A DNA stretch of 64,000 nt from Yponomeuta sedellus (taxonomy: Eukaryota; Arthropoda; Insecta; Lepidoptera; Yponomeutidae), in contig OW203749.1 of the NCBI GenBank assembly GCA_934045075.1, positions 3,402,304 through 3,466,303 on the forward strand. The letters run 5' to 3'. The notes under the pieces are model-generated. The model did no database searches and was not told the DNA's origin. It saw only the letters and a list, made by a program, of their open reading frames with translations. A program made the position numbers and the translations under genes. The number at the start of each line of letters is the position of its first letter. Within the stretch, counting starts at the first letter, position 1. Positions 17,832-54,227 of this stretch are shown piece by piece.

Positions 17832-18543
17832 CTAGAAGCCTAAAACACATTCAGTCTCCTCTTCATTCACAGGCTCAGTCACTTTGCCCTTGTCTAAGAT
17901 CCCCGCCTTTCCAAAGATCTTCTTTAACTTCTTATCAGCCTCGGCTAGCCCGGCACCCCTCGCGTCCTCCCCATGTCTAGTCAGCTTAAGAATAATCTTG
18001 TTACCGCTGGCGTTGCTGTATTCCGAATTAGAGTATACAACGGTCAACTTTGTGGTGAGCTCTCTGACTTTTTTCTTTTTCCTGTAGTTCGTCACGTCTT
18101 TGGAGACGCACGCGCACCGTTCGCACCTCATAACGAAGTGGTTCACGAGCTCCGACGTCGGGAGCAGACGCTTGTTCCCGCCATGACAGTTTTTACACAA
18201 CCACGTCGTCTTAAACGTCCACAGCTGGGAGCTGTTCTTCAGGCAGAACGCACAAAACTTAGGCCTGACCGGCATAGGGCGCCAGCACCGCTTGCAGAGC
18301 CTCAGTCTGTGGTACAGGTGCTTGTGAAGATGGACCTCGCCCGTGTACATGACCTGGCATCGGAGGCAAGTTTTCAGTTGCTTGGCAGAGTGCACGGAGG
18401 TCACGTGGTTGAGGTAGGCCGCTGGGCTGGTGAAGTAGATGTTGCAGTGAGTGCAGTGACCGCTTGTGGCCCGCCGGATGGCCGTGGTGTACTCCGGGAG
18501 GGCGACGCAGAGGTGCTGCGTCTCGTGGCTTAGGAGACGGTAC
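17832..18543 (-). CDS. Terminal exon C: half finger plus cysteine-rich zinc modules
   Basis: The acceptor TTTCATTCTCAG is followed by G and then 236 codons to TAG. Counting from Y1 (YRLLSHETQH), H6 and H10 complete the finger begun in exon 2. A C2H2 finger follows (C30, C33, H46, H51) and a second finger-like unit (C59, C62, H75, H78). C-x2-C pairs lie at 83/86, 97/100, 116/119 and 140/143, then a basic stretch (YRKKKKV) and an acidic end (NEEETECVLGF). Zinc fingers of this type usually bind DNA or proteins in the nucleus; the target is unknown. No AATAAA was seen in the 130 bases after the stop. A SINE-B copy ends about 20 bases upstream of the acceptor. Confidence 0.8.
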
Positions 18544-18566
18544 CTGAGAATGAAATTGCATCCTTT

Positions 18567-18784
18567 AAAAACCTATTTAGAGGCTAAAAATTCCACCCGT
18601 GCCTGTTTGCATGTTGCTGCCTGTACGTAATACAGAGGTTCTTGTTTTTGTAGAGGTTCGAAATTTCACTGATGCCGGTAAGTCGCCCATTAGCTCAGTT
18701 GGGAGAGCGCTGGCACGGTTAGCCAGAGGTGGCGGGGTCGAGTCCCGGCATGGGTGGAATTTTTGGCCTCTAAACAGATTCTCT
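18567..18784 (+). mobile_element. SINE-B copy with terminal inverted repeats, beside exon C acceptor
   Basis: Starts AAAAACCTATTTAGAGGCTA and ends with the reverse complement of about 36 bases of that start (..GGAATTTTTGGCCTCTAAACAG), with the leader and tRNA-like part (18685-18760) between. It therefore looks like a MITE carrying a tRNA-like gene. In gene orientation it ends within about 25 bases of the acceptor of terminal exon C, where a branch point would lie. Confidence 0.7.
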
Positions 18785-18879
18785 AACACCCAATTGACAG
18801 GTGGACATGGTACAAGACTCGAAGAGTTGACAGAATTTTAAGTTGGGGTTGCTACGGTCATTGTGATCTGGATTACCGG

Positions 18880-19195
18880 TCGGTAAAACAGATCATACTA
18901 ATATTTATTATAAACGCGAATGTTTGTAAGTATGGATGGATGGATGTTACTTTTTCACATGAAAACTACCGAATGGATTTTAATGAAACTTTACAACACC
19001 TAATATATTTTATACATCAGAATAACACAGGCTACAATTTAAAAAGATATCGTGTGACATTTTTCAAATGCGACCCAAAAATTAGTTATGTGATAATTTT
19101 AATGTCATAATCTTAGTTCTTTTGTACGCCACGTTAGTATAAAGCTATTTGAAATACTAATCCTGCGCAGACGCAGTCGCGGGCAGCATCTATTT
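18880..19195 (+). mobile_element. Probable Helitron remnant, second family
   Basis: Contains the segment GTTACTTTTTCACATGAAAA..GAATGGATTTTAATGAAACT and ends ..GCAGACGCAGTCGCGGGCAGCA. Both are commonly seen at the two ends of a second Helitron-type family in Lepidoptera; that comparison is from memory. The ends are decayed. Confidence 0.4.
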
Positions 19196-19498
19196 GTTTA
19201 TAATTGAGGTGTGGGCCTTTAATTGGCATAATCGCTAGCCCTAAGTCACTTTTAGTATAAGCTTCATCATGTTTGCGTCATTTGGAAAAACCCCTATAAC
19301 TATGTATATATGTATGTGTGTGTATGTGTGTGCGGGGGGGGGGAAGGGGCGGGCGTGTCTTTGTGTGTTCTTTAGCAAAAAATAATCCTTATGATGAAGC
19401 CCTTCGATCGGTGTGATAAAGCTACAGGCTATTTTTTTCTTATGTAGGTGGTTCGATACGCGGTTCAAACATGTAATTATTTAAAATCTATGAGTACT

Positions 19499-19826
19499 AA
19501 AAACCTATTTAGAGGCTGAAAATTCCGCCCATGCCGGGACCCGAACCCGCGACCTCTGGCTAACGTACCAGCGCTCTCCCGACTGAGCCAATGGGCAAGT
19601 GCCGGCATCAGCGAAATTTCGAATCTCTTTACAATATTCTCTATTATTATTTTGTGTTATTTACAGGCAGCGACATCTGGCTGAAGTAATTTGCATCACT
19701 TGCAGCCCCGAGTACCTACTTTGCAGTTAGGTTTTACATCGGAATGATATCGCTGTACCCGATGTAAAACCTAAATGCAAAGTAGGTTTGGTAGACAGGT
19801 TGCAGGTTAGCCTCTAAATAGGTTTT
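19499..19826 (-). mobile_element. SINE-B fold-back copy
   Basis: The minus-strand tRNA-like part (19530-19605) lies between AAAAACCTATTTAGAGGCTG at the left and GCCTCTAAATAGGTTTT at the right. A 29-base stem with one mismatch (19711-19739 region against 19755-19785) centres on GATATCGCTGTAC. The right side is interrupted by the MITE at 19832, and the trailing SINE-B sequence resumes at 25434 (GTCCTCAGCACCGGTTAGTG). Confidence 0.65.
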
Positions 19827-20076
19827 CGAAATGAGGGCTTTTCAATGACAGCTGTGAGTTGATTGCATTAAAAAAAACCAGATGGCGCTGCAAGGAGAAC
19901 AAATGTCACCATCATACGTTTTTTTTTTTTTTTTTTAATAAAGGGTTTTACGGCCCTGGATCCGTGTCCTTTTGAGCCTTGAGTATTGTATTAGTTTTTT
20001 ATAGTATTAGTTTTCAGATAAGAGCACTTATCACTTCCGTATCACTTCACTATAATGTTCAGTTTTTCCAGTCACT

Positions 20077-22728
20077 TTAAATTTTTATTCCACTGTTCAT
20101 AATGAATTTATATAAGGGGGCGAAAAAGGTAGGATTGCTAAGTAGATTTGGAAGAAGAGTTGGTGTAGGGACACCCGTTTCGCAGCTGATTGTGTCAAGT
20201 TCCGTGATAAGTATTAATCTGTGCAATTTAAATTCTTGACAGTTGAGCACGAGATGGTTTAGGTCGGCGTTTTCAGTTCCACAGTAAATGCAGTTCGAAT
20301 CTTGGGCTAGGCTGAGTCTATAAAGGTGAGCTTGGGTTTGGCAGTGGCCGAATCTCATTCTGTTTAGGGTGGTTATGTATTTCCGGCAGTTTATGTCTTT
20401 TTTCCGATGGTACCAAGGTTGGGCGGGCGGGCTTCCTTGGATGTCTCTATACCAGCTTCCTTTCTCTTTACTGATCTCATTCCAGTAGTTGCACCATATT
20501 GCTTTCAGATTCTCATTCAGATGAACATGGAGATCAGTAAATGGCAATTTGAGGTCTGTAGAGTGATCCTCGTCAGGGTCCAGATTTGCAGCTCGATCGA
20601 CGACTTCATTTCCAGTGATACCCCGGTGAGCAGGTACCCACATTAACTTAACTACCTTACCACTAACTAACAAACTATTTAACAAATTCTTTATATTATA
20701 GATGAGATAATTTACATTATAACGAAGGCAGTTACCTTCTAAAGCTAATAATACACTGAGTGAGTCAGTAAATATAATTATATTACAAGTATCAATATTT
20801 TGAACGTAAATTAAAGCTTGATGGATAGCATAAGCTTCGGCGGTAAAAATGCTACATCTAGTGTCAATTTTAAAACATTTAGTTTTCTTTAACTGAGGGT
20901 CAAAAAATGCTGAGTTTACCCTATCAACTGTTTTAGAGCCATCAGTATAGATGGAATACAGATGATTATTTTCCAGGAAAGCAAGTAAATCTTGTTGGTT
21001 CGTAATGCATGGTTTATGTACAAAATTATTTTTCAATAGAATATCGAGATCCATCCTATAGAGGGGCCACAAATTATCCTGATGCAAATTTTTTGTTAAA
21101 TCATTCAAATGTAAAACTATTCTTAATAAGGTTGGTATGTTACCATTTAATATCTGATTAAAATTTGCATAAGGAGCCACTGAATTGCCCAATTCAGTGG
21201 CATGCATTGGTAAAATGTGATCTAAGACAACTCTATTATTTTTAGTTAACATTTTCAAACAGAACCTTTCAGCTAGCTGTAGACGTCTAAGATGTAAAGG
21301 GGGAATGCAAGCCTCACATTGCATTGCATTAATTGGAGTAGAGCACATAGCCCCTGTAATAATTCTCAAAGCTTTATTCTGAATAACTTCTAATTTCTTC
21401 AGCAAAGCAAGGCTTGCCCCCATATAAGCAATTGAGCTATAATCGAAATGGCTGCGCATAATGCTCTTATATAACATAGATAATATTTTTGGGTCAGACC
21501 CCCAATGTACTCCTGCCAGAGACCGAAGTATATTAAGGGCTTTGGAGGCGTTTTTGATGATATAATTTATGTGAGATTCAAATGTTAGCCTATGATCCAG
21601 CAATATACCAAGAAACTTCTTTTCTTTCAACCAAGGTATAGGGAGATTATTGTATTCTACCAAACTATTACAAGGAGAAAGCCTTTTGGAGAAAAGCATA
21701 GCTCCACTCTTTAATGGATTTATAACCAATTTGAGCTTATTAAAATAATAATTATGCACTTGAGAGAGGGCTAAATTTAAATTATTTACAGCTATATTTA
21801 CATCCTTATGTACAGAGTATATTAACAAATCATCTGCATACTGCAGGAATTGAACTCCAATCTGGGTCAGATATTTATTTATCTGAGATGTATAAATATT
21901 GTACAATAAAGGGGATATGGTTGCTCCTTGCATAGTACCTTTAAAAACTTGTCCTGGTCCGTGTAGTATGTTGTTAAATTTAACATACATAGTCCTATCA
22001 TAAAGAAAATGAAATATCCATTTACAGACATGTCCTGGCATACCAATCTCTGATAAAATTCCTGCCAATACAGATGGATCAACATTATCAAAAGCTCCCT
22101 GTACATCAAGAAATGCACATACGGTGGCTGATTGGCTGTGAAAGGAATTCCTGATGTCAGAGATGAGTGAAGTAAAGCTCTCTGTAGCACTACGACCCTT
22201 CCTGAAGCCGAATTGCTGCTCTGGTAAGATTTTATTCTGCTCTACGTAATGGTCTAATCTGGTTTTAAGCATAAACTCAAACAATTTACCTACACATGAG
22301 GATAAAGAAATTGGTCTATATGAATTAAAGTCATCACTAGACTTGTCTGGTTTCAATATAGGAATAACGCATTGTGTTTTCCAAGCTTCAGGAATGGACT
22401 GAGTCATCCACAATACATTGTACATTTCCAATAACGATTTTTGGGCATCAACATGCATGTTCCTAATAAGCTTGTAAGGAATGTCATCTAATCCTGGGGT
22501 TGTATCTTTTCTATATTTGATAGCAAATGTGAATTCTGCAAAGGAAAATGGTTCTGAAAGATGAGCACAATTACTATTCCCTGTGTTATTAAAGATTTCA
22601 TTTAATGAGTTTATGTCTATGTTTTTTTCAGGAGGAGACGGTGGAGCATATTTATCAATGAAGGCTGGAATCCATTCGTCGTTTTTGGGCATTTTGGGTA
22701 ATGTTTGAATCTTTTGATGTAATTCCAA
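20077..22728 (-). pseudogene. LINE ORF2, reverse transcriptase and RNase H part
   Basis: About 883 codons in the frame after the ORF2 frameshift. The reverse transcriptase domain includes QGATISPLLYN and the catalytic LQYADDLLIYS. A thumb region follows, then a type I RNase H with IYTDGSK, TAEAYAIHQAL, IFTDSLSVLLAL and VPAHRGITGNEVVDRAA, which carry the expected Asp, Glu, Asp and His/Asp positions. The end has a cysteine motif (CIYCGTENADLNHLVLNC), the CCHC typical of LINE C-termini. The protein would copy the element RNA at a nicked target. All key residues are present; only the frameshift breaks it. Confidence 0.9.
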
Positions 22729-23831
22729 ATAGTGCTTATAGGTGTATACCTGTTAAAAGATTCAACTAATTTAGTCCATCCGTATTTCTTCTTTTCTTTT
22801 AATAATCTTTTTTTAAAAGCATTTAATTTTTTATATTCAATGTAACTCGACATATTACCATTACTTCTATACATATTTAGAGCTTCTTTACTTTTATTAA
22901 CAGCATCTGAGCATTCATTGTCCCACCAAGGAACAGGCTTTTTAATGACAATGCTATTAGTTTTCCTTAGCTTTGGAATAGTGACATCTTTAATCTGATT
23001 AAGTTCTTCGCAAAAATCATTGTAAGTTTTGACTGGGTTACTACTGTCTATATTAAATTGCCCTAATATTCTCTCTGTTTCAGATGCATAAGCCTGCCAA
23101 TCTGCTTTATTATAAAGATATCGATCAGCGGAATTAGCAATATCGTATTTATGAATTGTGGTGTGAATTGTTATAACTGTTGGAAAATGATAGCTGCCCA
23201 TCGCATCATCATGAACTGTCCACTCGCAAAGAGGAGCAACAGAAGGACTGACAGAAGAAATATCAATTGCAGAAGGCATTTTAGAAGGACTACCTACAGT
23301 GGTAGGAAAACCAGTGTTTAATATACATAGATCATACTCATCGAGTGTGTTATAGATCTCATTACCGCGAGAGTTAGACCTCAAACACCCAAAAGCGACG
23401 TGATGAGCGTTGAGATCGCCCGAAAAAAGCATTGGTTTCGGTAACATATTCAAAATCTGTTTGAGTCTTCTGCACTGAAATCTACGGTTATCATTAGGAG
23501 GCGGTATATAACTACAGAGAATTGATAAATTACCAGCATTGGTTTGTAAGATTATTGCAGCAGAATGCATAAAATTGTAAAAAGGAACAGAGACAGTAGA
23601 GAATTTCAAATTGGATTTAATTAAAATTGCTACACCTCCTCGTCCATCTTTCCCGTCTTGTCGAATTATATTGTAATTAGGAATATTAAAAGTGCTATTG
23701 TTCCTAAGCCAAGTCTCATTTAAAAGACAAACGTCTACATCATTATTTAATAAAAATGAAATTAATAATGGCTTCTTGTTAATAACTCCTTCTACATTAA
23801 ACTGTACTATTGTAATAAATGATTTATCCAT
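22617..23831 (-). pseudogene. LINE ORF2, endonuclease part before the frameshift
   Basis: Begins MDKSFITIVQFNVEGVINKK and carries an AP-type endonuclease: LLNETWL, RGGVAILIKS, SGDLNAHHVAFG, and DISSVSPSVAPLCEWTVHDD toward its end. This nuclease nicks the target to prime reverse transcription. Its ATG overlaps the end of ORF1 by 8 bases (ATGGATAA), suggesting translational coupling. About 370 codons in, near an A-rich run around 22690, the frame shifts by one base; the reading continues in the frame of the downstream part. Confidence 0.88.
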
Positions 23832-24990
23832 TATTCTGTAGTGATTTAATCAACACTTCCTGCACAATGGAAGCATTGATTTTGGGCAAATTACCATTCG
23901 CCAATGTTACCAAAGCTCCTACCAAACCATTTAAGATGAAGTCGCTCTTGACTATTTCTTTGACTAAATTTGAATTTGAGATCACAAGTTGTGGAGGTTC
24001 TGTTACTATGGGTTTTGTGGGAGCCCTAGCAATCATTGGCGAAGGCTTGGCTTTCAGTGGAGGGAAGTTCGAGTTGTAGTTTTTGACAATATTGTCTTGT
24101 TTTTTGGCTGAAGCAGCAATTTTTGCATAGTTAGTCCTATTAACATGTTCTTCTAACTTGTTTTTTTTAACTGGACAGTCTCTGGAAATTGCCAAGTGAG
24201 GCCCTTGGCAGTTGATACATTTCAATTCATCCTCTTTGTCGCATTTTGTGAAGTGGTGCTCACCAGAGCAGATAGAGCACTTCTGCAGTCCTTTACAGAA
24301 CTTCGCTCCATGGTTAAATCTGAAGCACTTAAAGCACTGCAGAAGTGGTGCTCTGTACTCATTGACCTTAAATCTATACAGATCTAGGTATACATACTCC
24401 GGTAGTGTCTGTGACAAGAAAGTCACAGACACTGAACTGTACGGAACAATTTCTCCGTTGACCTTGCGGGTAAAGCGCCTTACGCCTACAATTTCAAATT
24501 CTGCTGCAAGTTTCTTAAACAGTTCTTCATTCGTGATACTTGTTGGAACGAAGCGAAGGACCCCAATAGTCTCTACAGACCTCGCGGGAATATAGGCTCT
24601 AAAGCCCTGTTTCTTCAGCAGTTCGTCATTCGTCAGGAAGTTGTTCGCATTGGAAGCTTGTCCAAAGCACACACCAATTTTATTAGCATTGATGCGCTTG
24701 ATGCCCACCACGCCCTTGACGTCATTTTTGAAGATCGTGTTTAGCTGGTCAGGGTTTTTATTACCAATTCTGCCATTTTCGGATTCAACAAAGACAATGA
24801 ATTCATCGCTCACCAAATTTTCCGCGTACAGCCGCCTGTAACCTGGTTTCAGATATGGCTTGAATCCATCATCCTGCTGCTGCTCGCCGTGATGTTCGCG
24901 TCCATGGTCCTCAGTTCGCCCCCTCTTTAATTTGGGAGGAGGTTCATCCTCGGAAAGCCCAGGGGGCTTTGCCCCCGGGCGATCTTTCAT
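23824..24990 (-). CDS. LINE ORF1, gag-like RNA-binding protein
   Basis: 388 codons, intact. A charged N-terminus (MKDRPGAKPPGLSEDEPPPK) is followed by an RNA-recognition-like middle (FVPTSITNEELFKKLAAEFE.. VGVRRF) and three CCHC knuckles: CFKCFRFNHGAKFC, CSICSGEHHFTKC and CINCQGPHLAISRDC. Such proteins coat the retrotransposon RNA. Its stop overlaps the ORF2 start. Confidence 0.9.
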   Translation of the reverse strand: MKDRPGAKPPGLSEDEPPPKLKRGRTEDHGREHHGEQQQDDGFKPYLKPGYRRLYAENLVSDEFIVFVESENGRIGNKNPDQLNTIFKNDVKGVVGIKRINANKIGVCFGQASNANNFLTNDELLKKQGFRAYIPARSVETIGVLRFVPTSITNEELFKKLAAEFEIVGVRRFTRKVNGEIVPYSSVSVTFLSQTLPEYVYLDLYRFKVNEYRAPLLQCFKCFRFNHGAKFCKGLQKCSICSGEHHFTKCDKEDELKCINCQGPHLAISRDCPVKKNKLEEHVNRTNYAKIAASAKKQDNIVKNYNSNFPPLKAKPSPMIARAPTKPIVTEPPQLVISNSNLVKEIVKSDFILNGLVGALVTLANGNLPKINASIVQEVLIKSLQNNG

Positions 24991-25721
24991 CTCGCCGAAC
25001 CTAACGACGATGTTTTAAATACTTTTAGCGTAAGTTTATCGAGTTTTAACAATTTTCAGAAATATTTTTGAGAAATTTTCAAAAAACGCGCCTATCCTCT
25101 TCAAAAGCCCCTCATACGTTTTATGTTGTACGCACAGATTATTATTTGTGATAACCTAAACATCTCTTATTAGTCTGTGATCTAAGCAAAACTATGTTTC
25201 GAAACTGTTGAAATTAAAAAGTTTTGAAGTATTTTTACTTTGTTCGTTACATACGTACGTGAATTGTCTCTTAACTAATGGCTAGCCCGTGCATTGAGCA
25301 TTTTTGTAAAAACATAGGAACTCACCGTTTTCCTAAATGATGTAAATTTTGACATATTATATGACGTCAGCACCATCTATCGGTCACGTGCGGTACTGTT
25401 TTTTGTTTTTAATGGTGCTTTGAAAAGCCCTCATTGTCCTCAGCACCGGTTAGTGCAACAAAAATAATATAATTCTAAGAGTACTGTTAAATGGTTTTTT
25501 TTTTCATGAAAACAAAGTCATCTACAATAATATAATATTCCCTCCATGTGGCATACCTTCGACGCTCTCTATAACTTACTACGTATACCTAAGCATCTTT
25601 TAGAATAAAGTTCTTTACGTAAACAACGGTAAAAACTCACCAACATTGATGTGTTAAAGTTATAAAACTGGAAACCCAAAAGTTTATTATATTCTTTTCA
25701 ATGCCCGTGCTAAGGACAATT

Positions 25722-25862
25722 TAAAAACCTGTTTAGAGGCTAATACAGAGAGTATTGCAAAGAGGTTTGAAATTTCACTGATGTCGGTGGCCGCCCATTA
25801 GCTCAGTGTTCCAAATCCCGGCCTGGGTGGAATTTTTAGCCTCTAAATAGGTTTTTAAAATA
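25722..25862 (+). mobile_element. SINE-B copy lacking the anticodon arm, with TIRs
   Basis: Starts AAAAACCTGTTTAGAGGCTA and ends TTAGCCTCTAAATAGGTTTTT, an inverted repeat of about 20 bases. The tRNA-like part jumps from CATTAGCTCAGT to GTTCCAAATCCC, losing the anticodon arm. Confidence 0.7.
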
Positions 25863-25875
25863 AAGCTTTTATTAA

Positions 25876-26943
25876 CCTCCTGAGACCCTGAGACCTCACA
25901 CGATGACATAGACTTCTAAAAAATCATGAACGAACTCATAAACACATATTTGAATTTCGCGGTGTTTGGGGCATGGACGAGATGTTGCCACACCTGAATC
26001 AATATTATTTTTTGTGGTTTCTTTATGCAATTCTGTCATGGCGACGGTAAAACTATAGATGAAGGAGCCATCATGCCGCGCGGTGAGTTTCTATATTTTT
26101 TATCCAAATATTTCGATAAAAATTAACTTTTTTTTTGTTGTTTTTTGTACAAAACCGTTAGAGGTAATATGTAGGTATATTTGGAAACCAATATTTCATA
26201 CAAATCATCAATTTTGGCTTTGTGGGGTAGCTTTTCTTTTTTATGTCCTCATATGATCACTTTCGTTCTCAACACAACTCTTGGGATGCTTATACGCGCT
26301 CACAGATGACACTCGTTCTAAAGATTGGTGTTGTTTTTAGGTTTGCAAGATGATATTTTCCATTGCCTGAATGAATCTGATGGTGAAACTTTATCAGACA
26401 GCGAAAATGAACTGGTTCTACCTACTCATTTTAGTAGAAATTCCAGTTCGGATGACGAAAAAAATTAAACCGATACTGAAACAATTCAAGAAACACAGAT
26501 CTTCCAGCAAAAAAGGCAGGACAAGAGTTTTTTAGAACCAATTAGGTACTAGAATGTAGAATTGCTTAGATAATTTGTTGATCTCAATGTGATTTTCTAT
26601 TAGAAGTAAGTAATCATACTAAAAAATTCTGATTTTTATGATTATAGCTGTAAGGAAATAAAAGACTTTTGAAAACTAAAGTTTTGGATGTTGATTTCAA
26701 TAATTATATAAAGTGTTTTATTCTACTCACACCCTAATTACGAATAACTTTGTATGAACTCTTTACTTCCTCATACGAGAACTGACGCATAGCGTACTCA
26801 TATGAGGACATTAGATAAATAGAGAGGGGGAGAGGGGGGATTTTTAAAATTATTTTTCCGGGTATCACACTTTTATAACCTTTCAGAAAATAGTGTGGTA
26901 TGTTTTGACATTTTTGAAATTAATTGGTCTAGGACTCAGGAGG
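25876..26943 (+). mobile_element. piggyBac-like element, decayed
   Basis: The ends CCTCCTGAGACC and ..AGGACTCAGGAGG are inverted repeats with TTAA on both sides (25872-25875, 26944-26947), the signature target of piggyBac. It is 1068 bases long and holds only the first part of a transposase. Confidence 0.85.
26073..26468 (+). pseudogene. piggyBac-like transposase N-terminus, two exons, truncated
   Basis: Exon 1 (26073-26082, ATGCCGCGCG) ends at GTGAGT. Exon 2 starts at 26341 after TTGTTTTTAG, and the split codon joins cleanly as MPRG followed by LQDDIFHCLNESDGETLSDS. This acidic start is typical of piggyBac transposases. The frame stops at 26466 and then continues for some 25 codons (TDTETIQETQIF..), so the stop is a lesion. 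The DDD catalytic core is missing. Confidence 0.65.
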
Positions 26944-30666: not shown

Positions 30667-31636
30667 CTAATTCTTATTTTTAATCCTTTGGCATATACTT
30701 TTCAGTCGCTTGGCATTAGACATAGGTCTGCCCTTACTTACTTCGACCAACGACTTGTTCAGTGCAGCTCGAACCCTCTTCACTTCGTTTGCGATATTAA
30801 AATCCTCCTCAAATGCAATTCTATTAACTAGTGCACAAGAATTGCTCTTAACCGCAGTAAAATTAGCTTGATCTATCCCTTCCTTTTTACAGTTAGCTTG
30901 AAATATCCCTGAATTGTTTTCCCAAACAGGCTTTAAAACATTCTGCCACGCATTTCGGTTGGCTGGTACGTGGTTATCATTTACTTTAGACTTTTGAAAA
31001 CCAATCTGATAGTTTTCGTCCAGTTTCCAATTGGTGTGGGGGCGATTCGTGGTTTCCACTTTCAAATTAGCTTGCCCCGGAGCAGAATTATTCTCATCTA
31101 CTTTTAGTTGACCCTGACAAGAATTATTGTGTCCTACTTCAGTACCAGCGTCCATTTTACGATTAAATTTACGTTTCTTTATCTTTCGCAGCACCTTCAT
31201 TCTAGAAACCGGCCTCTGACAGGTAAGACAGGGCATCTTGCCAACCTTCATCCTGAGGTTGCCGATAGGCTTCATGATACACTGATTCGCTTTCACTTTT
31301 GACTTCTTCACCTCAAACTCGTAACAAATGCGACACTGCCGGTACACCCAGCTATTTCTGCTACTCCAATCTCGCCCCACGTTCTTGGGTAGTCTAAAAC
31401 TCTCCCCGTGACTCACCATGTGATCTGAAAGCCTCACCACCGAAGAAAATATCATCGGGCAATAAGAACATTGCACAGTGTAGAACTTCTGGCTACGATT
31501 GTTGAAATCATGCGTTGGATAAGTAGTTCCGGCTGAATCAGGGCGTTTTATCGAATTATTATATGTTTGTGGGTCGAAAGAGAGATTGTACAAATTGACA
31601 CGTGGGTGGGAGGCTTCGTGTCGGATCAGTTCAAAT
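30667..31636 (-). CDS. Terminal exon B: half finger, C2H2 finger, CxxC pairs, basic tail
   Basis: The acceptor TTTATATTACAG is followed by A and 322 codons to the stop. From F1 (FELIRHEASH), H6 and H10 complete the exon 2 finger. A canonical C2H2 finger follows (C56, C59, H72, H76: CSYCPMIFSSVVRLSDHMVSH). Two C-x2-C pairs (101/104, 136/139) enclose a basic linker, then a very basic run (RKIKKRKFNRKM) and a long polar region rich in Asn and Lys. The end has RIAFEEDFNIANEVK and ..NAKRLKSICQRIKNKN, which resemble ERIAFEDDLVAH and NADRLKNIKRNL of exon A. Likely nuclear; the target is unknown. Confidence 0.82.
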
Positions 31637-39073: not shown

Positions 39074-40334
39074 TCATTCACTACGTCTCTTAAACGTTTT
39101 GGAAAACTTCAAGTGTCCCGCTCTCATTTTTTGCAGGTTCCTTTTGATATTCTTCAAACGGTCGGCATTCGTTACAAATTTTTGTTTAACATTGTACGTT
39201 CTTGGTGTAATCTCAAGCACTTTCCGTGTCTTCTGCGGTTTTATCAACCTAAGGTCTCCTTTCTGTTTCGTCTTTACCGGCCGCTTGTCAACTGGCTTCG
39301 AGTGTGCGACCAAATCGTCTTCGAACGCTATCCTTTCTTTGATTCCAGTACGAGGCAGTGAAACGTCGGTGTCAGAATTAGCAACGCTCCGGGGCGTATC
39401 AACATTTTCCTGAACCGCTTTGTCAATGTCCGTGCAGCTCGCTTGACCCCACACAAACGTATTGGAGGCATTAGCCACGGCGTCGTCTGTCACAGCGTTT
39501 TGCACACCGATCAAAGAGTGCTCCCACACGGTGTTCACAAAATCCTTTTTGGCGACAGTACTAGGGACAGAATCATTTTTTGAGATAATGTTAGGCACTA
39601 AGGCGCTCTCTATGTCAGAACTGGTTGGACGCAAGATTGATTCCAGACCTCCCAAGTTAGAATTGTGGTTGGATATTGGGATTAGCGTCGCCATTTCCGG
39701 ATAGGTGTTATTGCCAACCCACAGCGGTATAGGTACCGCTTGACAAAGGATTACGTTTCCACCCAGGAAATTAACTTGATTCTGGACAACAGGATTGACG
39801 AAATTCACTCCAGGATGAAAAGAAGTCTGAGGCGTAGACGCTCCTTTTTCTGGTTCATCGTCACACAAATCTATGACTGGCGTTTGAACGTTTTCGAACT
39901 GTGCAGTTTGTGGACCTGTTCTAGAACCTAGGAACAAGCGGGCATGGAGGCTTAATCTGTTACACAGAGAACACTGGACGGTCGGTGCTTCAGCAATAAG
40001 TTCGCCGATCAACCTGCGAGGTATTTTGAGCAATCTGCAACAGGTATCGCAAGCAAAGAACGTCGGATTGCTCTGCCCTTCGACGTATCTAACAGCTGGG
40101 TGCAATTGCTCCCGAATTATGTGCACACCGGCATGACGAATCAGGTCTTCGATGGACCCGTAAGATGCTTTACAGACCGAGCAGTAGATGCCGAGGTGTT
40201 TGGTCGTACTAGGGTGCTCGCGAGAGTAGTTCCACGCTGCCTCCTTCAGAAGACTGAAAGGCCGCAGGCGGACGGTCGTCCTTGATAACAATTTTATGCA
40301 CAAATGCGATGCTTGGTGCTGGTAGAGTTGGAAT
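39074..40334 (-). CDS. Terminal exon A: half finger, C2H2 finger, CxxC pairs, SIM-like motif
   Basis: The acceptor TTTTTCTATCATCCGCAG is followed by A and 419 codons to the stop. From F1 (FQLYQHQASH), H6 and H10 complete the exon 2 finger. A canonical C2H2 finger follows (C51, C54, H67, H71) and C-x2-C pairs at 95/98 and 121/124. A hydrophobic-acidic VIDLCDDE at about 153-160 has the form of a SUMO-interacting motif and resembles TIDLSDDDE of exon 2. A long polar region ends in a basic tail (ERIAFEDDLVAH.., NADRLKNIKRNL.., FKRRSE). The open frame extends upstream past the acceptor into the intron; that part is not counted. Confidence 0.82.
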
Positions 40335-42855: not shown

Positions 42856-43084
42856 TATGTATTTCACACGATACGATTTTTTGCTTCTCCACATTCTTGC
42901 CACAGTTGGTTACATTTGTGACCCCAAAGTGTGACGAGACATGTTTTGCAATTTTACATCTACAAATCGTTGGTAAAAAGGTAAACTCATTGACTGCTTT
43001 TCCATTTTTTTATTTATAAACTGATAAATATTTTTGCCCAAAAATAACTCACAAAAAAAAAATAACGATGGGTGGGCGTTTTTA

Positions 43085-44272: not shown

Positions 44273-44274
44273 CT

Positions 44275-45484: not shown

Positions 45485-45489
45485 TAGGA

Positions 45490-45956: not shown

Positions 45957-46070
45957 TTAAGAGGCTAAAAATTCCACCCATGCCGGGATTCGAACCCGCG
46001 ACCTCTGGCTATCCGTGCCAGCGCTCTTTCCAACTGAGCTAATGGGCGACTTTAGACTATTCTCTGCATT
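45957..46070 (-). mobile_element. SINE-B, minus copy
   Basis: Reverse complement of trailer and tRNA-like part (box B as GGATTCGAACCC), breaking off within the leader (ACTTTAGACTATTCTCTGCATTACGTAC). Confidence 0.75.
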
Positions 46071-46109
46071 ACGTACATTACGTAAGTTTTAGTTATTAGT
46101 TAATTACTG

Positions 46110-46446
46110 GAAGCGCTCGTGGCCTAGCGGAACCGAGTGATTGGAAATAATCACTTGGGTTAAGCAACAACAGGCGCGTTCAGGCATTGGATGGGGGACC
46201 ATCTCGTGACTACCGCTAGTCGCATTTTTTCCGAGCGCTTCCGTGCTTCGCAAGGCACGCTAAGCCGTCAGTGCCGGCTGTCATGTAACGGCAGTCGTTA
46301 AGCCACGTCAGAGGCCTTACGGGCGGCTTGATAACTCTGGCCCGCGGCTGTCTTACAATCCTCCACCGACCCGGATTTGGCCCCCGTGGTGGAATAGCAG
46401 GAAAAGACCCGTGCCCCAGCAGTGGGGACATACAATGGGTTGATAT
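46110..46446 (+). mobile_element. SINE-A, near full length
   Basis: GAAGCGCTCGTGGCCTAGCG, head with GATGGGGGACCATC, body and ..TGGGTTGATATCG end. A further 3' scrap lies at 46515-46568. Confidence 0.85.
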
Positions 46447-46569
46447 CGTACTTATAGTAGGCAACTGATCCATTAGGTTTTAGACGACTTCAGGTTTGGT
46501 TAGGTTAAGCGATGTAGGTTAGGCCACACCCGGGCCCCAGCAGATGGTGACATACAAGGGGTAATATCG

Positions 46570-46944
46570 AATTGTACTCTGTATCAGCTGTCGCACGTGC
46601 CTACCCAAGCAAAGTAAAATGAAAAATAGCAGCAAACTAACATAAAAATCAATGAAAAAAATGTACTCACGTCAAACTGTAGACGTCCTTTACACTTGTA
46701 CACTTTTTGCGAGTAAATTACGCGGAAATAGTTTGCCGTCGCGATGGCCGATAAAATTTGGGAGTTGATTCCAATGTAAAATAGAATTTTAAAACTGGAA
46801 TGCGCCATAGCAGACGGCTATAGCCACCGCAAAATATGGTGCGTGGATATAACAGATGTTACTGCAATTCATTAGCGCGCTACATGCAGTAACACGCGCC
46901 CTTAATGGAAAAAATCACTTACAGATTGCTTCTGCAAGACGTGT
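46570..46944. other. No exon seen
   Basis: Unrecognised sequence; a 74-codon minus open frame at 46584-46808 has no support. Confidence 0.45.
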
Positions 46945-47268
46945 CAGATGTCTCGATCATGTTAATGATCAATATCTCGATCAATAACATGATCAATCTC
47001 TTCATCATTAACATGTTCTATCTCTCGACCATTAACATGATCAATCACTCGATCATTACCATGATCAATCTCTTGATCATTAACATGAACAATTTTTCGA
47101 CCATTAACATGTTCAATCTCTCGATCATTAATATGATCATGATCAATTATCGTGGTCAATGTCTCGATAATTAAAATTATCAATCTCTCGACCATTAACA
47201 TGATCAATCTCTCGATCATTGATATGATGGATCTCGCGATCATTGACATGATCGAGAGATTGATCTTG
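46945..47268. repeat. 24-bp ATCATTAACATG minisatellite
   Basis: About 13 units of CATGATCAATCTCTCGATCA plus TTAA. Because 24 is a multiple of three, both strands stay open across the array (I-N-M-I-N-L-S-I on plus), which mimics genes. TGATCA and CATG palindromes recur in each unit. Confidence 0.93.
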
Positions 47269-47269
47269 C

Positions 47270-47884
47270 ACTTGATTTAGAACTCACGACCAAGAACATA
47301 AGTCAAAAAACCCAGGACTAGATTAACGCCAAAAACAGCCGTGAGTGCTAAAAATCACTATTAATATGATTGAGAGATTTTTTCCGACCATTTTTTGCAA
47401 AAACAACGAGTAAAAAGTGATATGAGTTTTTTCTTTCGGTTGCCAGTGAATTTAAAATTTGAAAATAAAACGGCGAATCACCCAATTTAATTAATCCTTT
47501 TCAAAAAAGAACAGGATAGACGTCACTCGCGCGCGTAAGAATGTGCAGCACAAACGTAGCTGCTCAAGGCATTCATTCCAGTGAAATCCACAAACATCTG
47601 GCCCAGTATTACCGAGGACGACTCTGGAGTTTTAAAATCGGCCTCATCACACTCAAATACGAGCTCTGTAAGTCTTACATTGTCCTGTAATACAGGCTAG
47701 ATGTCGATGCGGGTACATTTTTTCCCTTGATTTTGGAAACGGAAATCACCCAACGAATGTGAAACTATAAATGTGAAAGTTTACGTCACGCCAGTGGCGT
47801 AACTACACCATATGGGATGTGGGGCCCTCCCAGTAAAAATATTTGCGTTACAACGTTGTTATTTACCATATTACTGCCATGCGA
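47270..47884. other. No exon seen
   Basis: Unrecognised intron sequence apart from short Helitron-type scraps near 47770. Confidence 0.45.
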
Positions 47885-48003
47885 GAGGTCCCGGGTTCCA
47901 CTGGCGTTAGGCATAGACGGTCACCCATCCATGCACCGAACGCGCCCTATGTTGCTTAACCATCGTTCAAGATCACTCAGGCAGCCGGGGCCACGAGCGA
48001 TTT
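47885..48003 (-). mobile_element. 5S-like SINE head, diverged
   Basis: The minus strand reads ..GGTTAAGCAACATAGGGCGC..CATGGATGGGTGACCGTC, again like 5S rRNA boxes A to C, joined to a CACTGGAACCCGGGACCTC segment. Confidence 0.6.
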
Positions 48004-48009
48004 AAACTG

Positions 48010-48207
48010 ACACACTGCACTTTCAGCGGTCCTCAATTCCTTAGTTAGACCTGAGATTTCCGCACGTAGCCTCATAGTTGGGCCATTGTACGTAGCAAGC
48101 GCTGAGGTACGTTAACACTTCAGACACTAGGGTTTCCTTACGATGTTTTCCTTCACAGTCGGCGAGTGGTATTGCTACCATAATTTCACAAATGTACATA
48201 ACTTAGA
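48010..48207 (-). mobile_element. SINE-E body
   Basis: Matches 61268-61450: TTAGTTAGACCTGAGATTTCC.. ..GATGTTTTCCTTCACAGTCG.. ..CACAAATGTACATAACTTAG. It is the reverse complement of the common lepidopteran SINE body with GAAGGAAAACATCG. Confidence 0.65.
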
Positions 48208-48209
48208 AA

Positions 48210-48350
48210 ACAAAAACCTATTTAGAGGCTAAAAATTCCACCCATGCCGGGATTCGAACCCGCGACCTCTGGCTATCCGTGCCAGACGTATCCATATTGA
48301 ACACTCTCGCTTCCGAGTCCATTGTTCTACCCACTGAGCTACCGTCACGA
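48210..48350 (-). mobile_element. SINE-B piece fused to another tRNA-like segment
   Basis: 48210-48285 is the SINE-B trailer and 3' half of its tRNA-like part. At CGTGCCAG it changes to a different tRNA-like 5' half (minus strand GACGGTAGCTCAGTGGGTAG). This appears to be a chimera of two tRNA-derived repeats. Confidence 0.6.
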
Positions 48351-48510
48351 TGAATACTATTATCCTGATCTAATTATGCGCTTTGGGGATCTGAGCCCGG
48401 GGGCGCCAACCACGGGCATTTCACTTAGTACATTGTTTCATTCTATGGAAATCTCACTATGAAGTTAGTACCGTAACAGCTCCCTAGTGGCGCTTAAGTC
48501 GGATATTTTA

Positions 48511-48810
48511 TTTTTATATGTTGGCTATACTGACAAGAAACATGGTATTTTTATTATGTTGGTAACTGACAGGTGACAGAATAAAATGCGGAACACTTCT
48601 ACAGTATAATAAGTTACTCTATGGCGCCAACCCTCGAGATCATATAAAGCGTTATCATTATTTTTATATGTTGGCTATACTGACAAGAAACATTGTATTT
48701 TTATTATGTTGGTAACTGACAGGTGACAGAATAAAATGCGGAACACTTCTACAGTATAATAAGTTACTCTATGGCGCCAACCCTCGAGATCTTAAAAAGC
48801 GTAATCATTG
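48511..48810. repeat. Tandem duplication of 150 bp
   Basis: 48511-48660 and 48661-48810 differ at only a handful of positions (ACATGG/ACATTG; ATCATATAAAGCGTTATC/ATCTTAAAAAGCGTAATC). The high identity indicates a recent event. Confidence 0.92.
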
Positions 48811-48814
48811 GAGT

Positions 48815-49332
48815 CACACTAATATTAAGAAAGGCGAAAGTTTGTGAGTCTGTATGTTTGTTACTTCTTCACGTCTAAACGGCTGGAGCGTTTTTAATCA
48901 AAGGACTTTGTCCATTTTGGGTCATACGTGGACAGAATGTTAGAGAAAAGTCGAAATAACTCCTGATTATAATTAATTTCAAAACGAATATTTTTGCTTA
49001 CCTCGTTGTGTCAATCGACATTTTAAACAGTTACAAACTAATAAGAATTTTATCTGAAATCCAGTCTTTATTTTGTCAACCAGCCTTGATTTTTATTTCT
49101 GTGTTGCAATTTAAGGAATACAAATTGCACAGAAAACAATTTGGAGTTTCTAATGCTAGGCGTTTTAGTATTATTTGGGTAAAAAATAATGCTCACTAAT
49201 GCAACGGCATTACAATACTTGCTAGATATGTCGTATACAATTATTGGTGTGATAAAATGATTAAAAGAAATAATCTGGATTTGAGGGTAAACTATTTATT
49301 TATGGCAACACTAGACAAAAAAAAATTGTTTG
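48815..49332. other. Helitron-type scrap and unrecognised sequence
   Basis: 48815-48910 carries TAATATTAAGAAAGGCGAAA and CACGTCTAAACGGCTGGAGC, the start of the repeat at 36240. The rest shows no exon. Confidence 0.45.
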
Positions 49333-49770
49333 AATGAGGGATTTTTCTGACAGCTATTAAAAAAAAAAAATAGTTCTGAAAGCTAAAATGAGATGGCGCT
49401 GAATCGCAAGGGTTAACCTTTTTTGTTTGTTATTGCTTGTCACAGGTAAAAACTTTATTGCTGTTTTGCGATTTCATCAACTGGAAGGAATCTAATCTGT
49501 GATCAACTGATCAATCATCTATTCTATGTCATTCGGTTTCTCCTGTGGTTACGACGACCCTGGCTTTTCTTTTGGACTGTTCTGGCATAACAATAATAAT
49601 GCAAGAGCCAAAAGAAAGAGGGAGGAAATACCACGTGATCGGTGGACTGTGGACCACAGAATAAACTGGAAAGTGGGAAATCCCATTAAAAACAAAAACC
49701 CTTACTTGAAAACGCCATCTACTGACAAATTTAGAACTACTTTTCTTAGCTGTTAGAAAAATCCCTCATT
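49333..49770. mobile_element. TIR element TGAGGGATTTTTCTGACAGC
   Basis: The ends TGAGGGATTTTTCTGACAGC and AGCTGTTAGAAAAATCCCTCA are inverted. Both the end and the internal GAGATGGCGCTGAATCG resemble the TGAGGGC MITE at 19832 and 55380, so the two are relatives. It encloses a 76-codon open frame. Confidence 0.65.
49526..49756 (+). CDS. Small open frame inside a TIR element, unrecognised
   Basis: 76 codons, starting MSFGFSCGYDDPGFSFGLFW, with a basic middle (ARAKRKREEIPRDRW) and ending ..KTPSTDKFRTTFLSC. It fills much of the element at 49333 and its composition is protein-like. I recognise no family and see no catalytic motif; it may be a remnant of a transposon protein or chance. Confidence 0.3.
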   Translation: MSFGFSCGYDDPGFSFGLFWHNNNNARAKRKREEIPRDRWTVDHRINWKVGNPIKNKNPYLKTPSTDKFRTTFLSC

Positions 49771-50309
49771 GTCATGGTCAGTCCGGCTAAAACAAACAAA
49801 ATTCCCTCATTTTTTTTGCTGTTTCTTTGCTTCTCGTGAATATTGTTTATTTTATTACTACTTTGCCTTTTTAAAATAGATCCCGATTCATCGTTTCGGC
49901 TCAACTACGGATTTTATACCCGACTTACTTTGTGGTAGGCAAATAAAGCAAGCAAACCATAGGACACCTTGCAGCAAAAAACTCACAATGCAGGTATATT
50001 GATGCAAATTAATTACTGTAATAGGGTTCTTACTAACTCATAATACAAAACCTACTACTTAGTTTTAATTCAATTGACTGTTCACGTTTGGCCAAATCGC
50101 CCATACAAAGTGGACAAAGTCCTTTGGTACGGAGTTAGCTGACACCCTGTATTAACCCATAGGCTACGTTTTACTGCGGGAAAATATCCTATTCCCGTGG
50201 GAAAATCGATAAACGGCGAGGCACAGCCAGTGAAGTATAATTAAGAGTAAAACACGCGCAAACTAAATCTACCTAATAGAAAATATATTTGTACGCCTTT
50301 AAGGCAGGA
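49771..50309. other. Helitron-type scrap and unrecognised sequence
   Basis: 50060-50215 contains TACGGAGTTAGCTGACACCC and ..TTTACTGCGGGAAAATATCC, part of the repeat at 36240. No exon seen. Confidence 0.5.
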
Positions 50310-50555
50310 CATAGCGACTTGAAACCTAACATAACATTTACATACAAGCACATACATTGCTTCTGACCCCACACTAGGATACCCTGCGTCGTGGGAACCA
50401 GACACAACGACATCACAAACATGTAACCATCCAAGGGTGTTTTGGATGTTTACACAATCTGGGGTGTTTTTTGTCCCCAGCCGGGGATCGAACCCCGGAC
50501 CTCTTGCATGGTAGGCAGATGCGCTACCGCTGCGCCACAAAAAGGCCGCCAGATC
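50310..50555 (-). mobile_element. SINE-D, full copy
   Basis: On the minus strand: TTTGTGGCGCAGCGGTAGCG (box A), ..GGTTCGATCCCCGGCTGGGG (box B), then the body to ..TGTATGTGCTTGTATGTAAATG. It is the most complete SINE-D here. Confidence 0.85.
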
Positions 50556-50727
50556 CCCGTCAGAACCTGACCGAACACCAAATGTAAAAATGCACCTATG
50601 ATCCACAAATAAACTTATACATACATTGTCTTACCATGACACTGAACAGTTTTAACCATCTTAAAATGTGTTAGCTAATAAGAAATCCTAAACAGAAATG
50701 TCCCAAAATCGACATTCGGCTTTCTTT

Positions 50728-50825
50728 ACAAACACACACACACACACACCCTCACAAACACACACAAACACCCACAGAGACACACATGAACACACCCTCA
50801 CCCTCACACACACACACACACACAT
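50728..50825. repeat. (CA)n microsatellite, imperfect
   Basis: ACACAC with CCTCACAAAC and GACACACATG interruptions. Confidence 0.93.
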
Positions 50826-50830
50826 ACTAC

Positions 50831-51036
50831 ATCGTTATCAACCCTTCTATGCCCCCACTGCGGGGGCACGGGTATCTTCCTGCATCGCAGGAAGGTTAGG
50901 CCATACTCCACCACGGGGGCCAAGTCCGGGTTGGTGGAGGATTGTAAGACAGTGACGGGCCTTACTGTCAGAAGTTATCAAGCCGGTTTTTTTTCATTGA
51001 TTCCAATCACTTGGTCCGCCTAGGCCACGAGCGCTT
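50831..51036 (-). mobile_element. SINE-A with internal deletion
   Basis: The reverse-complement 3' half (TATCAACCCTTCTATGCCCC..) joins at CAAGCCGGTTTTTT to the 5' head end (TTGATTCCAATCACTTGG..GCCACGAGCGCTTC). Confidence 0.8.
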
Positions 51037-51051
51037 CATACGTACATACAT

Positions 51052-51295
51052 ACATAACCTCACGCCTGTATCTCAGAGGGCTAGGCAGAGACCAGGGACT
51101 GCCACTTGCCACGATCTTGACAGATCAACTTCGGCTCATCAACGTTCATAAGTCGTTCACGAACGCCGGTTCCGGTACTTTTTATCTTCCCCTTTGCTAA
51201 TACATGCCCTATTTGGTCGATGTATGTCCGCCTGGGACGTCCCTTACCGGCTCTTCCACTCACATTCGCAATATATTTTTGTTTCGTAAATTTTT
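51052..51295 (-). mobile_element. LINE-X C-terminus, longest copy
   Basis: The minus strand encodes about 60 residues including GRAGKGRPRRTYIDQIG.., RERLMNVDEPK and ICQDRGKWQSLVSA. This resembles the C-terminal end of LINE reverse-transcriptase proteins (GRP[RK].. then ..RLMN.., ..CQDR..W..). The clade cannot be assigned from so little. Confidence 0.7.
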
Positions 51296-51346
51296 CTTCG
51301 AATTCGGTGGAATTTTGAGCCTCTAAATAGGTTTTTAAATTGTCTT

Positions 51347-53199
51347 TGGAACGTTTTATAACTTTAATAATTAATAAATAAACTCTGGAACGACTTTAGG
51401 TGTGGTTTTATTTGTAGAATTGTAGTAATATTAACAGAAAACTGGATAAAAACGGATAAACGGAGAAGCAGGTAAAAAGTCAGATCTGGTCAAAGCGTAA
51501 AGTAGTAGTGTGAAAAATGAGGGAAATCGAAGAATGTGTGACGTACATAATTTAAATATTTGAAAATGATAGATGGAAAAAGAAATAAAAATGGTGTGAA
51601 GAGGTTTGCACCGTCACATTACCCGGGGGCACCGGTAAAAAAAAATTTTTTTAAATATATTTATTTAAAAAAATATATTTAAAAAAAAATTTTTTTTTTA
51701 TAAAAAAAATTGTCAAGTAAAATTATTTAATTTAAAATTTAAAGTCGAGAATCCAAAGTAAGGTCGATGAAGGTCGGGGATGTGGGATGGTAAGTAAATA
51801 AATTTAGTTATTCTTAAATATTAAAATAAAATAAAATATAAAAGATGGGCGATGAAAAAAAAAAATTTAGAAGGTGTGGGGTGATATCTACAATGAATAT
51901 TTACACGGCAGTTCCACTTTTATTCATCATCTATCATTCATCCCTAGCATGCATTATCTAGCATTGTCTTCATCTAAAGTGAAGGTGAAGACGTTCATTC
52001 AGTATAGACAAAATCTATTTTTATTAATTAGATTTATCCAGAAACTGGCCTAAATTAGTAATAGGCTTATTTAGCCAGTTACCACCCGCTGGTATTCGGC
52101 AGTGGTAAGGCTTATTTATTGAGTCACAATCCGCTCTATGAAAGTTATTTACATTTTAACAATATTTATAATATTGGGTACATAGTACCCGACGGGGTAG
52201 AATCCGTCGTAGAAGTGCTCTCAAGAGCTATGGTGGGGTAAACACCGTAATGCGTTAGGTAAGTAACGATAAGTAAATTAATTGACCTAGGCTTATTTAA
52301 CGTGTTGTCGCCGCACCTGATTGAATGTTTGGATTGTTATAAAAAAAAAATTGGTTAGCAAATGTCCTGGAGGATAGTGGTGTAAGTGTATAGTTAATAA
52401 ATAAATAGATAAATATTATGACGCAAATGTGTCCGAAAAGGTAATGTGGTGATTATATTTACAGAAAATTAAAACTATAAAAAGGTGGCGTTGGTAGGTT
52501 TTGTACCAGTTGTCAGTTAAATATTTAAAAAGAGTACGGATACTATAAAAAAAGAGGTTAAGAAATTATTTTAGTAATGAGGTAAGGATGGGGTGAGGGT
52601 GAGAGTTTTATTTTATTGCCAAAGAGTTCCTTGTAGGTTTAACCTGTGGAGGTTTTATTTTGAATTTTGAAAAATTTTATGACAATGAATGGTGTCAGAA
52701 TTACTGACGTCTAGAAATTTGGTTTGCAAAGATTTTGTAAATAATTATAATTTAAATTTTAATAATATAATATTGTTATCAATAGACTGTATGAGTGCAG
52801 TTTCGCCTTACCTTCGAGTCGGCCTCGAAGACCTAGAGGGTAAAGCTAGGCTGTCTACGTGTAATTACCCAGGATACTCTCCTGAGGCAACGTAAAAACT
52901 TCACCCGCGCCCCACGTTGGGCGCCAGTGGAACGTTTTATAACTTTAATAATTAATAAATAAACTCTGGAACGACTTTAGGTGTGGTTTTATTTGTAGAA
53001 TTGTAGTAATATTAACAGAAAACTGGATAAAAACGGATAAACGGAGAAGCAGGTAAAAAGTCAGATCTGGTCAAAGCGTAAAGTAGTAGTGTGAAAAATG
53101 AGGGAAATCGAAGAATGAGTGACATACATAATTTAAATATTTGAAAATGATAGATGGAAAAAGAAATAAAAATGGTGTTAAGAGGTTTGCACCGTCACA
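51347..53199 (-). mobile_element. Short non-autonomous LTR retrotransposon (Gypsy-like)
   Basis: Two 272-base LTRs (51347-51618, 52928-53199) differ at three positions, start TG and end CA on the element strand, and are flanked by TCTT (51343-51346, 53200-53203). One base after the 5' LTR on the minus strand is an 18-base match to the 3' end of tRNA-Lys. The 1309-base interior is AT-rich and has no gag or pol. A 4-base target and tRNA-Lys primer fit Gypsy. It was recently mobile, judging by LTR similarity, and must borrow proteins. Confidence 0.88.
52909..52926 (-). promoter_or_regulatory. tRNA-Lys primer binding site
   Basis: TGGCGCCCAACGTGGGGC on the minus strand, complementary over all 18 bases to the 3' end of insect tRNA-Lys(CUU) plus CCA as I recall it. 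This sets the orientation of the LTR element. Confidence 0.85.
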
Positions 53200-53203
53200 T
53201 CTT

Positions 53204-53957
53204 TAGCACGGGTTAGTGCATTAAAAAGAATATAGTCATGTGGGTACAGCGATATCATTTCGATACAAAACCTAACTGCAAAGTAGGTACTCGTGGCTGC
53301 AAGTGATGCAAATTATTTCAACCAGATGTTGCTGCCTGTACGTAATACAGAGAGTATTTAAAAACCTATTTACAACAGAGAGTATTGTAAAGAGGTTTGT
53401 TCGCGCGACGTAATCATGAATCTGTGGTCATACATTCATTATTCTGTCGTTCCGGTGCCGTCGCTCGTGCCGCTCGCTCGCTACTAATTTATCCAGCCAT
53501 CTGCATACACATTCGCACTGTGACATACGCGCGTGATAAGTGCTCGAATTCTCGTGAAGTGATTTTAGACATTTGGTGACTAATTAACTTTATCAGCTCA
53601 AAGAACAATATATTGACAATATTAGACTATAAGTGAACAGTGCAGGAGTGTTCTCCGTACGCTGGACGCATCAGCTCATCCATCACCGCTCATCATCTGC
53701 CCAACAGCTAAAGCGAGCCATCATCCACGATCACCAAGTAAGTCCATTCACTTCACCTCCCATTCCGCTCTCTCAACCAGCCCATCGTGAGGTAGACCTA
53801 GGCGACACTGGCTAACTACCAGGTTCGAAATGCCACTGATGCCGGTAAGTCGCCCAATGGCTCAGTTGGGAGAGCGCTGGCACGGTTAGCCAGAGGTCGC
53901 AAGTTGGAGTCCCGGCACGAGTGGAATTTTTAGCCTCTAAATAGGTTTTTAAATCTT
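53204..53957 (+). mobile_element. SINE-B, split by a solo LTR
   Basis: The spacer and leader (53204-53397, starting TTTAGCACGGGTTAGTGCAT) and the tRNA-like part with trailer (53822-53957) belong to one copy, interrupted in AAGAGGTT|CGAAAT. The LTR element at 51347 abuts its left end. Confidence 0.75.
53398..53821. mobile_element. Solo LTR of a second family, TSD GGTT
   Basis: Starts TGTTCGCGCG and ends ACTACCA, 424 bases, with GGTT on both sides (53394-53397, 53822-53825) and the empty site known from other SINE-B copies. A second copy at 61565 shares the same ends. It is probably left after recombination between two LTRs; no internal part is known here. Confidence 0.75.
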
Positions 53958-54039
53958 TCTTGCTTCGTCCTCTTAAACAAGTAAATGAAAAATGAGCCGC
54001 TCGAACGGAGGAGATGTAAAATCAAAAGGCAGCACTCAC

Positions 54040-54227
54040 CTATTGGGAAACACTTGAGGGCACAGCGGGCAGTAACAGATCAGCGGCCTGACGAGACTGT
54101 GGTAATCATTCAAGTCCAACACGTTGATCAGTGGTTCGTCATCGTCCGAGAGGTCAATAGTGGCCGTTGGTGGATCCTCCGCCGTGGCTTGGGAGCTGGG
54201 AAGCTTGTCATTGTCGTCGAATATCAT
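54040..54227 (-). CDS. Exon 2 of the zinc-finger gene
   Basis: The acceptor GTCTCGTCTTCACAG opens 62 codons in phase 0 (MIFDDNDKLPSSQATAEDPP..), and the exon ends AAT AG before GTGAGT. It is acidic, with TIDLSDDDEP around residues 23-32, a SUMO-interacting-type motif, and ends CPLCPQVFPN plus two bases of Arg: the first half of a C2H2 finger. It needs a downstream exon that supplies the histidines; three candidates exist. The initial ATG is probably internal. Confidence 0.78.

Follow-up and report, generated by a model that had tools for sequence, protein, structure and literature searches.

A predicted minus-strand gene of Yponomeuta sedellus in which a C2H2 zinc finger may be completed by one of three terminal exons

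Exons of the predicted gene

A stretch of 64,000 nucleotides from the lepidopteran Yponomeuta sedellus (assembly GCA_934045075.1, contig OW203749.1, positions 3,402,304 to 3,466,303), referred to here as the window, contains exons of a predicted zinc-finger gene with three candidate terminal exons. The gene lies on the minus strand, and the numbering of the window is carried past 64000 into the contiguous flanking DNA. The first exon, E1, is located at 75160-74927 (contig 3477230-3477463), 10.9 kb past the window end, and closes at a donor that cuts a finger in half. Its start codon (GGAAAATGG), the ATG at 75150, is preceded by an in-frame TAA three codons upstream within the same exon. Exon D (62663-63389, 242 codons) opens at a half-finger acceptor; it lies within the window, upstream of the region treated in a preliminary description of this DNA. 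The last common exon, E2 (54040-54227), encodes an acidic stretch, IDLSDDDEP, followed by the first half of the common finger, CPLCPQVFPN.

The three terminal exons are located downstream of E2 on the same strand. Exon A (39074-40334) starts with the second half FQLYQHQASH and continues with a C2H2 finger, C-x2-C pairs, a stop and an AATAAA signal located 113 nucleotides past the stop. Exon B (30667-31636) has the same layout, with the second half FELIRHEASH and AATAAA at 50, 148, 319 and 489 nucleotides past the stop. Exon C (17832-18543) starts with YRLLSHETQH and contains at least one further C2H2 finger, several C-x2-C pairs and a stop. The preliminary description had credited every end with its own finger, C-x2-C pairs and stop, had placed AATAAA after A and B, and had noted that the second half of the common finger differs among the ends; all of this was found again. 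The exon coordinates give introns of 11.5 kb (E1-D), 8.4 kb (D-E2), 13.7 kb (E2-A), 22.4 kb (E2-B) and 35.5 kb (E2-C). The predicted messages E1-D-E2-A, E1-D-E2-B and E1-D-E2-C would encode proteins of 799, 702 and 616 residues, each with a single stop in the terminal position.

A finger divided by the predicted splice junction

The 3′ end of E2 reads TTT CCC AAT AG|gtgagt at 54040, which leaves half of a C2H2 finger and two bases in front of the donor; if E2 is read through unspliced, one further codon is followed by a stop. Exon A begins as cag|A TTC CAA at 40334, exon B as cag|A TTT GAA at 31636 and exon C as cag|G TAC CGT at 18543. The junction codon is AGA with A and B and AGG with C, and encodes Arg at all three joins. 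Every join yields the exact pattern C-x2-C-x3-F-x8-H-x3-H (C-x2-C-x12-H-x3-H), with Leu in the conserved position. The joins and their common Arg, as proposed in the preliminary description, are thus reproduced from the DNA, and its finger pattern stands at all of them, while the spacing given there as "x9 or so" has to be replaced by exactly x8. A, B and C are predicted to be three in-frame 3′ exons on E2, each with a zinc finger and a stop of its own.

The comparison with Pfam profiles agrees with the pattern, at scores close to the threshold. Pieces of 33 residues spanning the E2 junctions match zf-C2H2_4 at 1.6e-5 (A), 7.4e-6 (B) and 4.8e-5 (C), with 24.2-26.7 bits, slightly below the curated cut-off of 27. 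Among the whole proteins, the B form passes this cut-off with 32.8 bits over two fingers, and the A and C forms fail it with 24.1 and 22.6 bits. The internal finger of exon C passes zf-met.

Short motifs of this kind can arise by coincidence, and the frequency of such events was estimated by pattern scans of both strands over 264 kb, of which 5 kb reads N. The acceptor pattern was AG|N followed by ..[LIVMA]..H...H, and the donor pattern was C..C...[FY].. with two nucleotides before GTRAG and at least 50 open codons. Twenty third-order Markov sequences (5.28 Mb, one strand) served as the simulation. The acceptor pattern occurs at 6 of the 14,558 AG sites of the minus strand, four of which are open for at least 230 codons; these are A, B, C and D (63389). 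On the plus strand it occurs at 1 of 14,452 AG sites, with none open for 100 codons. The simulations gave 55 short acceptor fits, or about 2.75 per 264 kb strand, and the real DNA likewise holds short-frame fits at 42959 and 147773. Both of these were rejected because of early stops in frame, and the former is a poor acceptor besides, as 30% of AG sites score equally high. What coincidence does not supply is length: fits of at least 100 open codons number zero in the 5.28 Mb of simulated sequence, against four observed. Donor matches number two on the minus strand, E1 at 74927 and E2 at 54040, and zero both on the plus strand and in the 20 simulations. The two donors and four acceptors have one common phase. 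That the half-finger pattern is an accident of short motifs is, in view of these counts, hardly credible.

The same scans define the extent of the set. The strict scan detected no open-frame acceptor, and hence no further terminal exon of this type, over 80 kb beyond the downstream edge of the window; of these, the 5 kb immediately to its left (-4999 to 0) read N and may hold further ends. In the next 50 kb downstream, none of the 5,751 AG sites of both strands matches the acceptor pattern. Further strict half-finger donors are absent from the surroundings of A, B and C and from the stretch between E2 and C. A lone stretch on the plus strand at 25912, LLKNHERTH after an AG, resembles a finger end; a first half for it was sought only through the donor scans.

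The predicted junction between E1 and D represents a second, weaker split finger. The 3′ end of E1 encodes CKFCTETFSN followed by AA|gtaagt, and the join with D gives CKFCTETFSN-K-LEALVHNATH, which keeps the C-x2-C-x12-H-x3-H spacing but has Ala in the usual position of Leu. Exon D ends in phase 0 (CACAG|gtaatt) and E2 starts in phase 0 (cag|ATG). Exon D also contains three similar stretches, LEMLMNCVADCKVNLEL, DILSSFTNECRVVLG and KILDSFTAECKVILG, the last one close to the D donor, which may form an internal repeat.

The preliminary description had seen no BTB domain in this gene, and the search with Pfam leads to the same result. No BTB match was obtained in E1-D-E2-A at E <= 10, nor, at E <= 0.01, in 74001-104000 read in its three minus-strand frames, a search which a BTB domain divided among several exons or located farther upstream would escape. 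Because E1 has its own ATG after an in-frame stop and Pfam gives no BTB match, the absence of BTB from this gene is likely real.

Coding signals, relatedness and warning signs

The splice sites were scored with simple, approximate weight matrices, and only the resulting ranks are used. The E2 donor is equalled by 0.40% of GT sites, that of D by 1.35% and that of E1 by 2.62%. Among AG sites, about 1.0-1.5% reach the scores of the E1, E2, A and C acceptors, and 6% reach that of B. The period-3 signal of each exon was compared with 1500 background windows, from which the exons and five retroelement stretches had been excluded and in which tandem repeats were kept. The signal is equalled by 4/1500 windows for C, 14/1500 for B, 38/1500 for A, 51/1500 for E2 and 64/1500 for D. 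Protein searches of the genome (657.5 Mb, 57 contigs) located E1, D, E2, A and C once each, and B once in full together with a relic; as only the best candidates are scored, these counts are lower bounds. The further matches of B (E 7.1) and C (seven matches, E 0.33-9.4) are insignificant and were not counted as paralogues.

The relationship among the ends can be judged from the order of their motifs. A half finger, a C2H2 finger and two C-x2-C pairs follow each other in all three, and the arrangement is closest in A and B, with motif positions 7/52/68/96/122 in A and 7/57/73/102/137 in B. Over the full length, the similarity is equalled by 19/500 shuffles for A-B, 4/500 for A-C and 0/500 for B-C. 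Exon D is similar to none of them in the same type of comparison. Near their ends, A and B carry a motif pair (RIAFE-D ... NA-RLK-I) that 59/2000 shuffles equal, and no similarity among A, B and C is detected in the DNA at E 1e-4. It is plausible that the three ends, as far as their sequences tell, derive from an old duplication.

A recent, partial and frame-broken copy of B on the minus strand at 28593-28415 gives some indication of what happens to such copies. It corresponds to the last ~209 nucleotides of exon B, with 173/183 aligned bases identical (5% divergence), and gaps of 6, 37 and 1 nucleotides (44 in sum) break its frame. A, B and C retain open frames of 237-420 codons. As the relic lost its frame fast and the three ends kept theirs, the comparison, drawn from a single relic that covers only part of one exon, suggests that all of them are under selection.

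Several observations weigh against a functional gene of this form. The E1|D join matches Pfam zf-C2H2 at 0.047 only, which makes it a poor finger. The D acceptor is ordinary, being equalled or exceeded by 10% of AG sites, and E1 has no period-3 signal, with 775/1500 background windows equal to it. When the half finger is left out, the likeness among the ends becomes scant: shuffles equal it in 27/500 cases for A-B, 477/500 for A-C and 37/500 for B-C. No homologues of D-E2-A (E <= 1e-3) or E1-D-E2-B (E <= 10) were found in the protein collections searched, whose animal content is uncertain, which gives this absence little bearing on rarity. The chief warning signs come from exon C: neither AATAAA nor ATTAAA follows it within 2.1 kb, and its G+C content at third codon positions (GC3) is 0.74, compared with 0.45-0.51 for D, A and B.

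These two features of C speak for the alternative that a single terminal exon is used, most likely A, which is nearest to E2, with B and C being decaying old duplicates or the ends of separate genes whose first exons escaped recognition. The broken copy of B points in the same direction, in that copies do decay at this locus. Against this alternative, B and C have 323 and 237 open codons with a period-3 signal, and each begins in the sole phase and spacing that fit E2. The scans described above also revealed no other strict half-finger donor between E2 and C. The use of one end only is considered unlikely. The preferred interpretation, in which a minus-strand gene E1-D-E2 continues into A, B or C and encodes a C2H2 protein whose finger is completed by the alternative terminal exon, is on the sequence evidence quite probable.

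Viral contigs scanned with exon B gave no match. A sequence search against the PDB matched C weakly to known fingers (best 0.027) and gave B only an unrelated match (0.72). An AlphaFold2 model of exon C alone had a mean predicted local distance difference test (pLDDT) score of 37 and was not used.

Repeats occur in and around the gene. A long interspersed nuclear element (LINE) lies between B and C on the minus strand (20077-25014), with matches to endonuclease, reverse transcriptase and RNase H in two overlapping frames and a third frame upstream that has no Pfam match. A 23-base tandem repeat at 17365-17684 starts about 150 bases past the stop of exon C, a long GGAT repeat occupies the window start (1-1203), and tRNA-derived repeats are also present in this DNA.

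Relation to known genes and possible consequences

In the logic of its terminal exons the arrangement would resemble lola and mod(mdg4), as the preliminary description had suggested: one 5′ part would be combined with three in-frame zinc-finger 3′ exons, each with a stop. In lola (longitudinals lacking) of Drosophila, many alternative C-terminal exons, mostly of the zinc-finger type, are described, one of which is joined to the common 5′ part, giving at least 20 isoforms (PMC1947980); different C2H2 fingers are reported for 17/20 (PMC11426971). The likeness would lie in the common 5′ part joined to alternative zinc-finger ends. The difference is that the common part of lola has a BTB domain, which was not found here, and that there are three ends here compared with 20. 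In the present gene the predicted cut is placed within a finger.

For mod(mdg4) of Drosophila and Lepidoptera, common 5′ exons and many alternative 3′ exons with zinc-binding domains are described (PMC4667647, PMC12692577). That gene has BTB and FLYWCH domains and is trans-spliced, and its junctions fall outside the conserved domains (PMC4667647). Pfam gave no FLYWCH match at E <= 10 for any of the three ends. The present gene differs in having neither BTB nor FLYWCH matches, and in a junction that falls inside a C2H2 finger. The precedent of mod(mdg4) in both groups raises the further explanation that promoters of their own drive transcription of A, B or C, with trans-splicing to E2, and the long introns of 13.7 to 35.5 kb would be in keeping with it. 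Plain cis-splicing suffices, however, because all exons are on one strand and in order, and the strict scan found no open-frame acceptor on the other strand; trans-splicing is regarded as quite improbable at this locus.

In Broad-Complex (br) and fruitless (fru), splicing is described as linking a core with alternative C2H2 ends (PMC3977908, PMC4175664, PMC3572092). Compared by these descriptions rather than by exact junctions, they differ in that the core contains BTB and the ends are presented as whole zinc-finger domains. Membership of the present gene in the BTB zinc-finger family of lola, mod(mdg4), br and fru is not supported, because no BTB and, for mod(mdg4), no FLYWCH was found.

The nearest published concept found is that of protein features which arise when two exons are brought together (Genome Biol. 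2005, PMC1175989), of which the CCCH zinc finger is included in Table 2. The likeness is that a domain exists only once two exons bearing its parts are joined. In the cases outlined there, skipping of an insert turns the feature on or off, whereas here every join keeps the finger and alters it. The open-licence literature of PubMed Central yielded neither a description of this gene nor a case of alternative second halves in a C2H2 finger, an absence that is weak given that limit. In the known genes, alternative ends are added to a common BTB part; what would set this gene apart is its three ends, the division of a finger, and a D-E2 unit in which one finger is finished and another begun.

According to the proposed mechanism, E2 as the last common exon would provide the first half of the finger, with its two cysteines and the beginning of the helix. 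The alternative terminal exons would provide the remainder of this finger, a further finger, the C-x2-C pairs and the tail, and splicing together with polyadenylation would choose among them. As the finger is split between E2 and each end, the choice of the terminal exon would always restore the finger and yet alter it. The frames, phases, spacing, splice signals and copy number, and the departure from chance, are read from the DNA itself; from them we infer that E1, D and E2 belong to a single message and that each of the three ends is used, and we take the fingers to bind DNA, with targets that differ.

Under the usual helix numbering of Zif268-type C2H2 fingers, which we take to apply here, the intron splits the codon of position +1. 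On the same assumption, position -1 is contributed by E2 (Asn), and positions +2, +3 and +6 by the end, namely F/Q/Q in A, F/E/R in B and Y/R/S in C. Classic C2H2 arrays have a short linker between fingers. The gap from the junction finger to the next finger is 40 residues in A, 45 in B and 19 in C, and because this is unlike the short classic linker, binding of protein or RNA by these fingers is also possible.

A more complex use of the same exons can be envisaged. As the E1|D finger is split as well, E1 could in principle splice straight to A, B or C. These direct joins match the C2H2 profile at 1.6e-5, 8.6e-6 and 4.9e-5, as well as the E2 joins do and far better than E1|D (0.047). Together, D and E2 measure 915 nucleotides, a multiple of three, and the unit opens with a second half and closes with a first half; it could be kept or skipped with no finger broken. 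Six proteins of 799, 702, 616, 494, 397 and 311 residues would be possible in this way. The assembly of fingers from two first halves (CKFCTETFSN of E1 and CPLCPQVFPN of E2), each joinable to the second halves of A, B and C, is put forward tentatively and is rather doubtful; if true, it would give six proteins with six distinct junction fingers.

In the simpler form of the gene, with E2 as the only exon joined to the ends, one splicing choice would, if the interpretation is true, set the tail of the protein as well as three of the four usual base-contact positions of a finger. The immunoglobulin exons of Dscam are a comparable natural half-domain swap. If the isoforms are real, the gene of Y. 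sedellus would represent a half-domain swap in a putative DNA reader that has no BTB domain, in which the fold pattern is kept.

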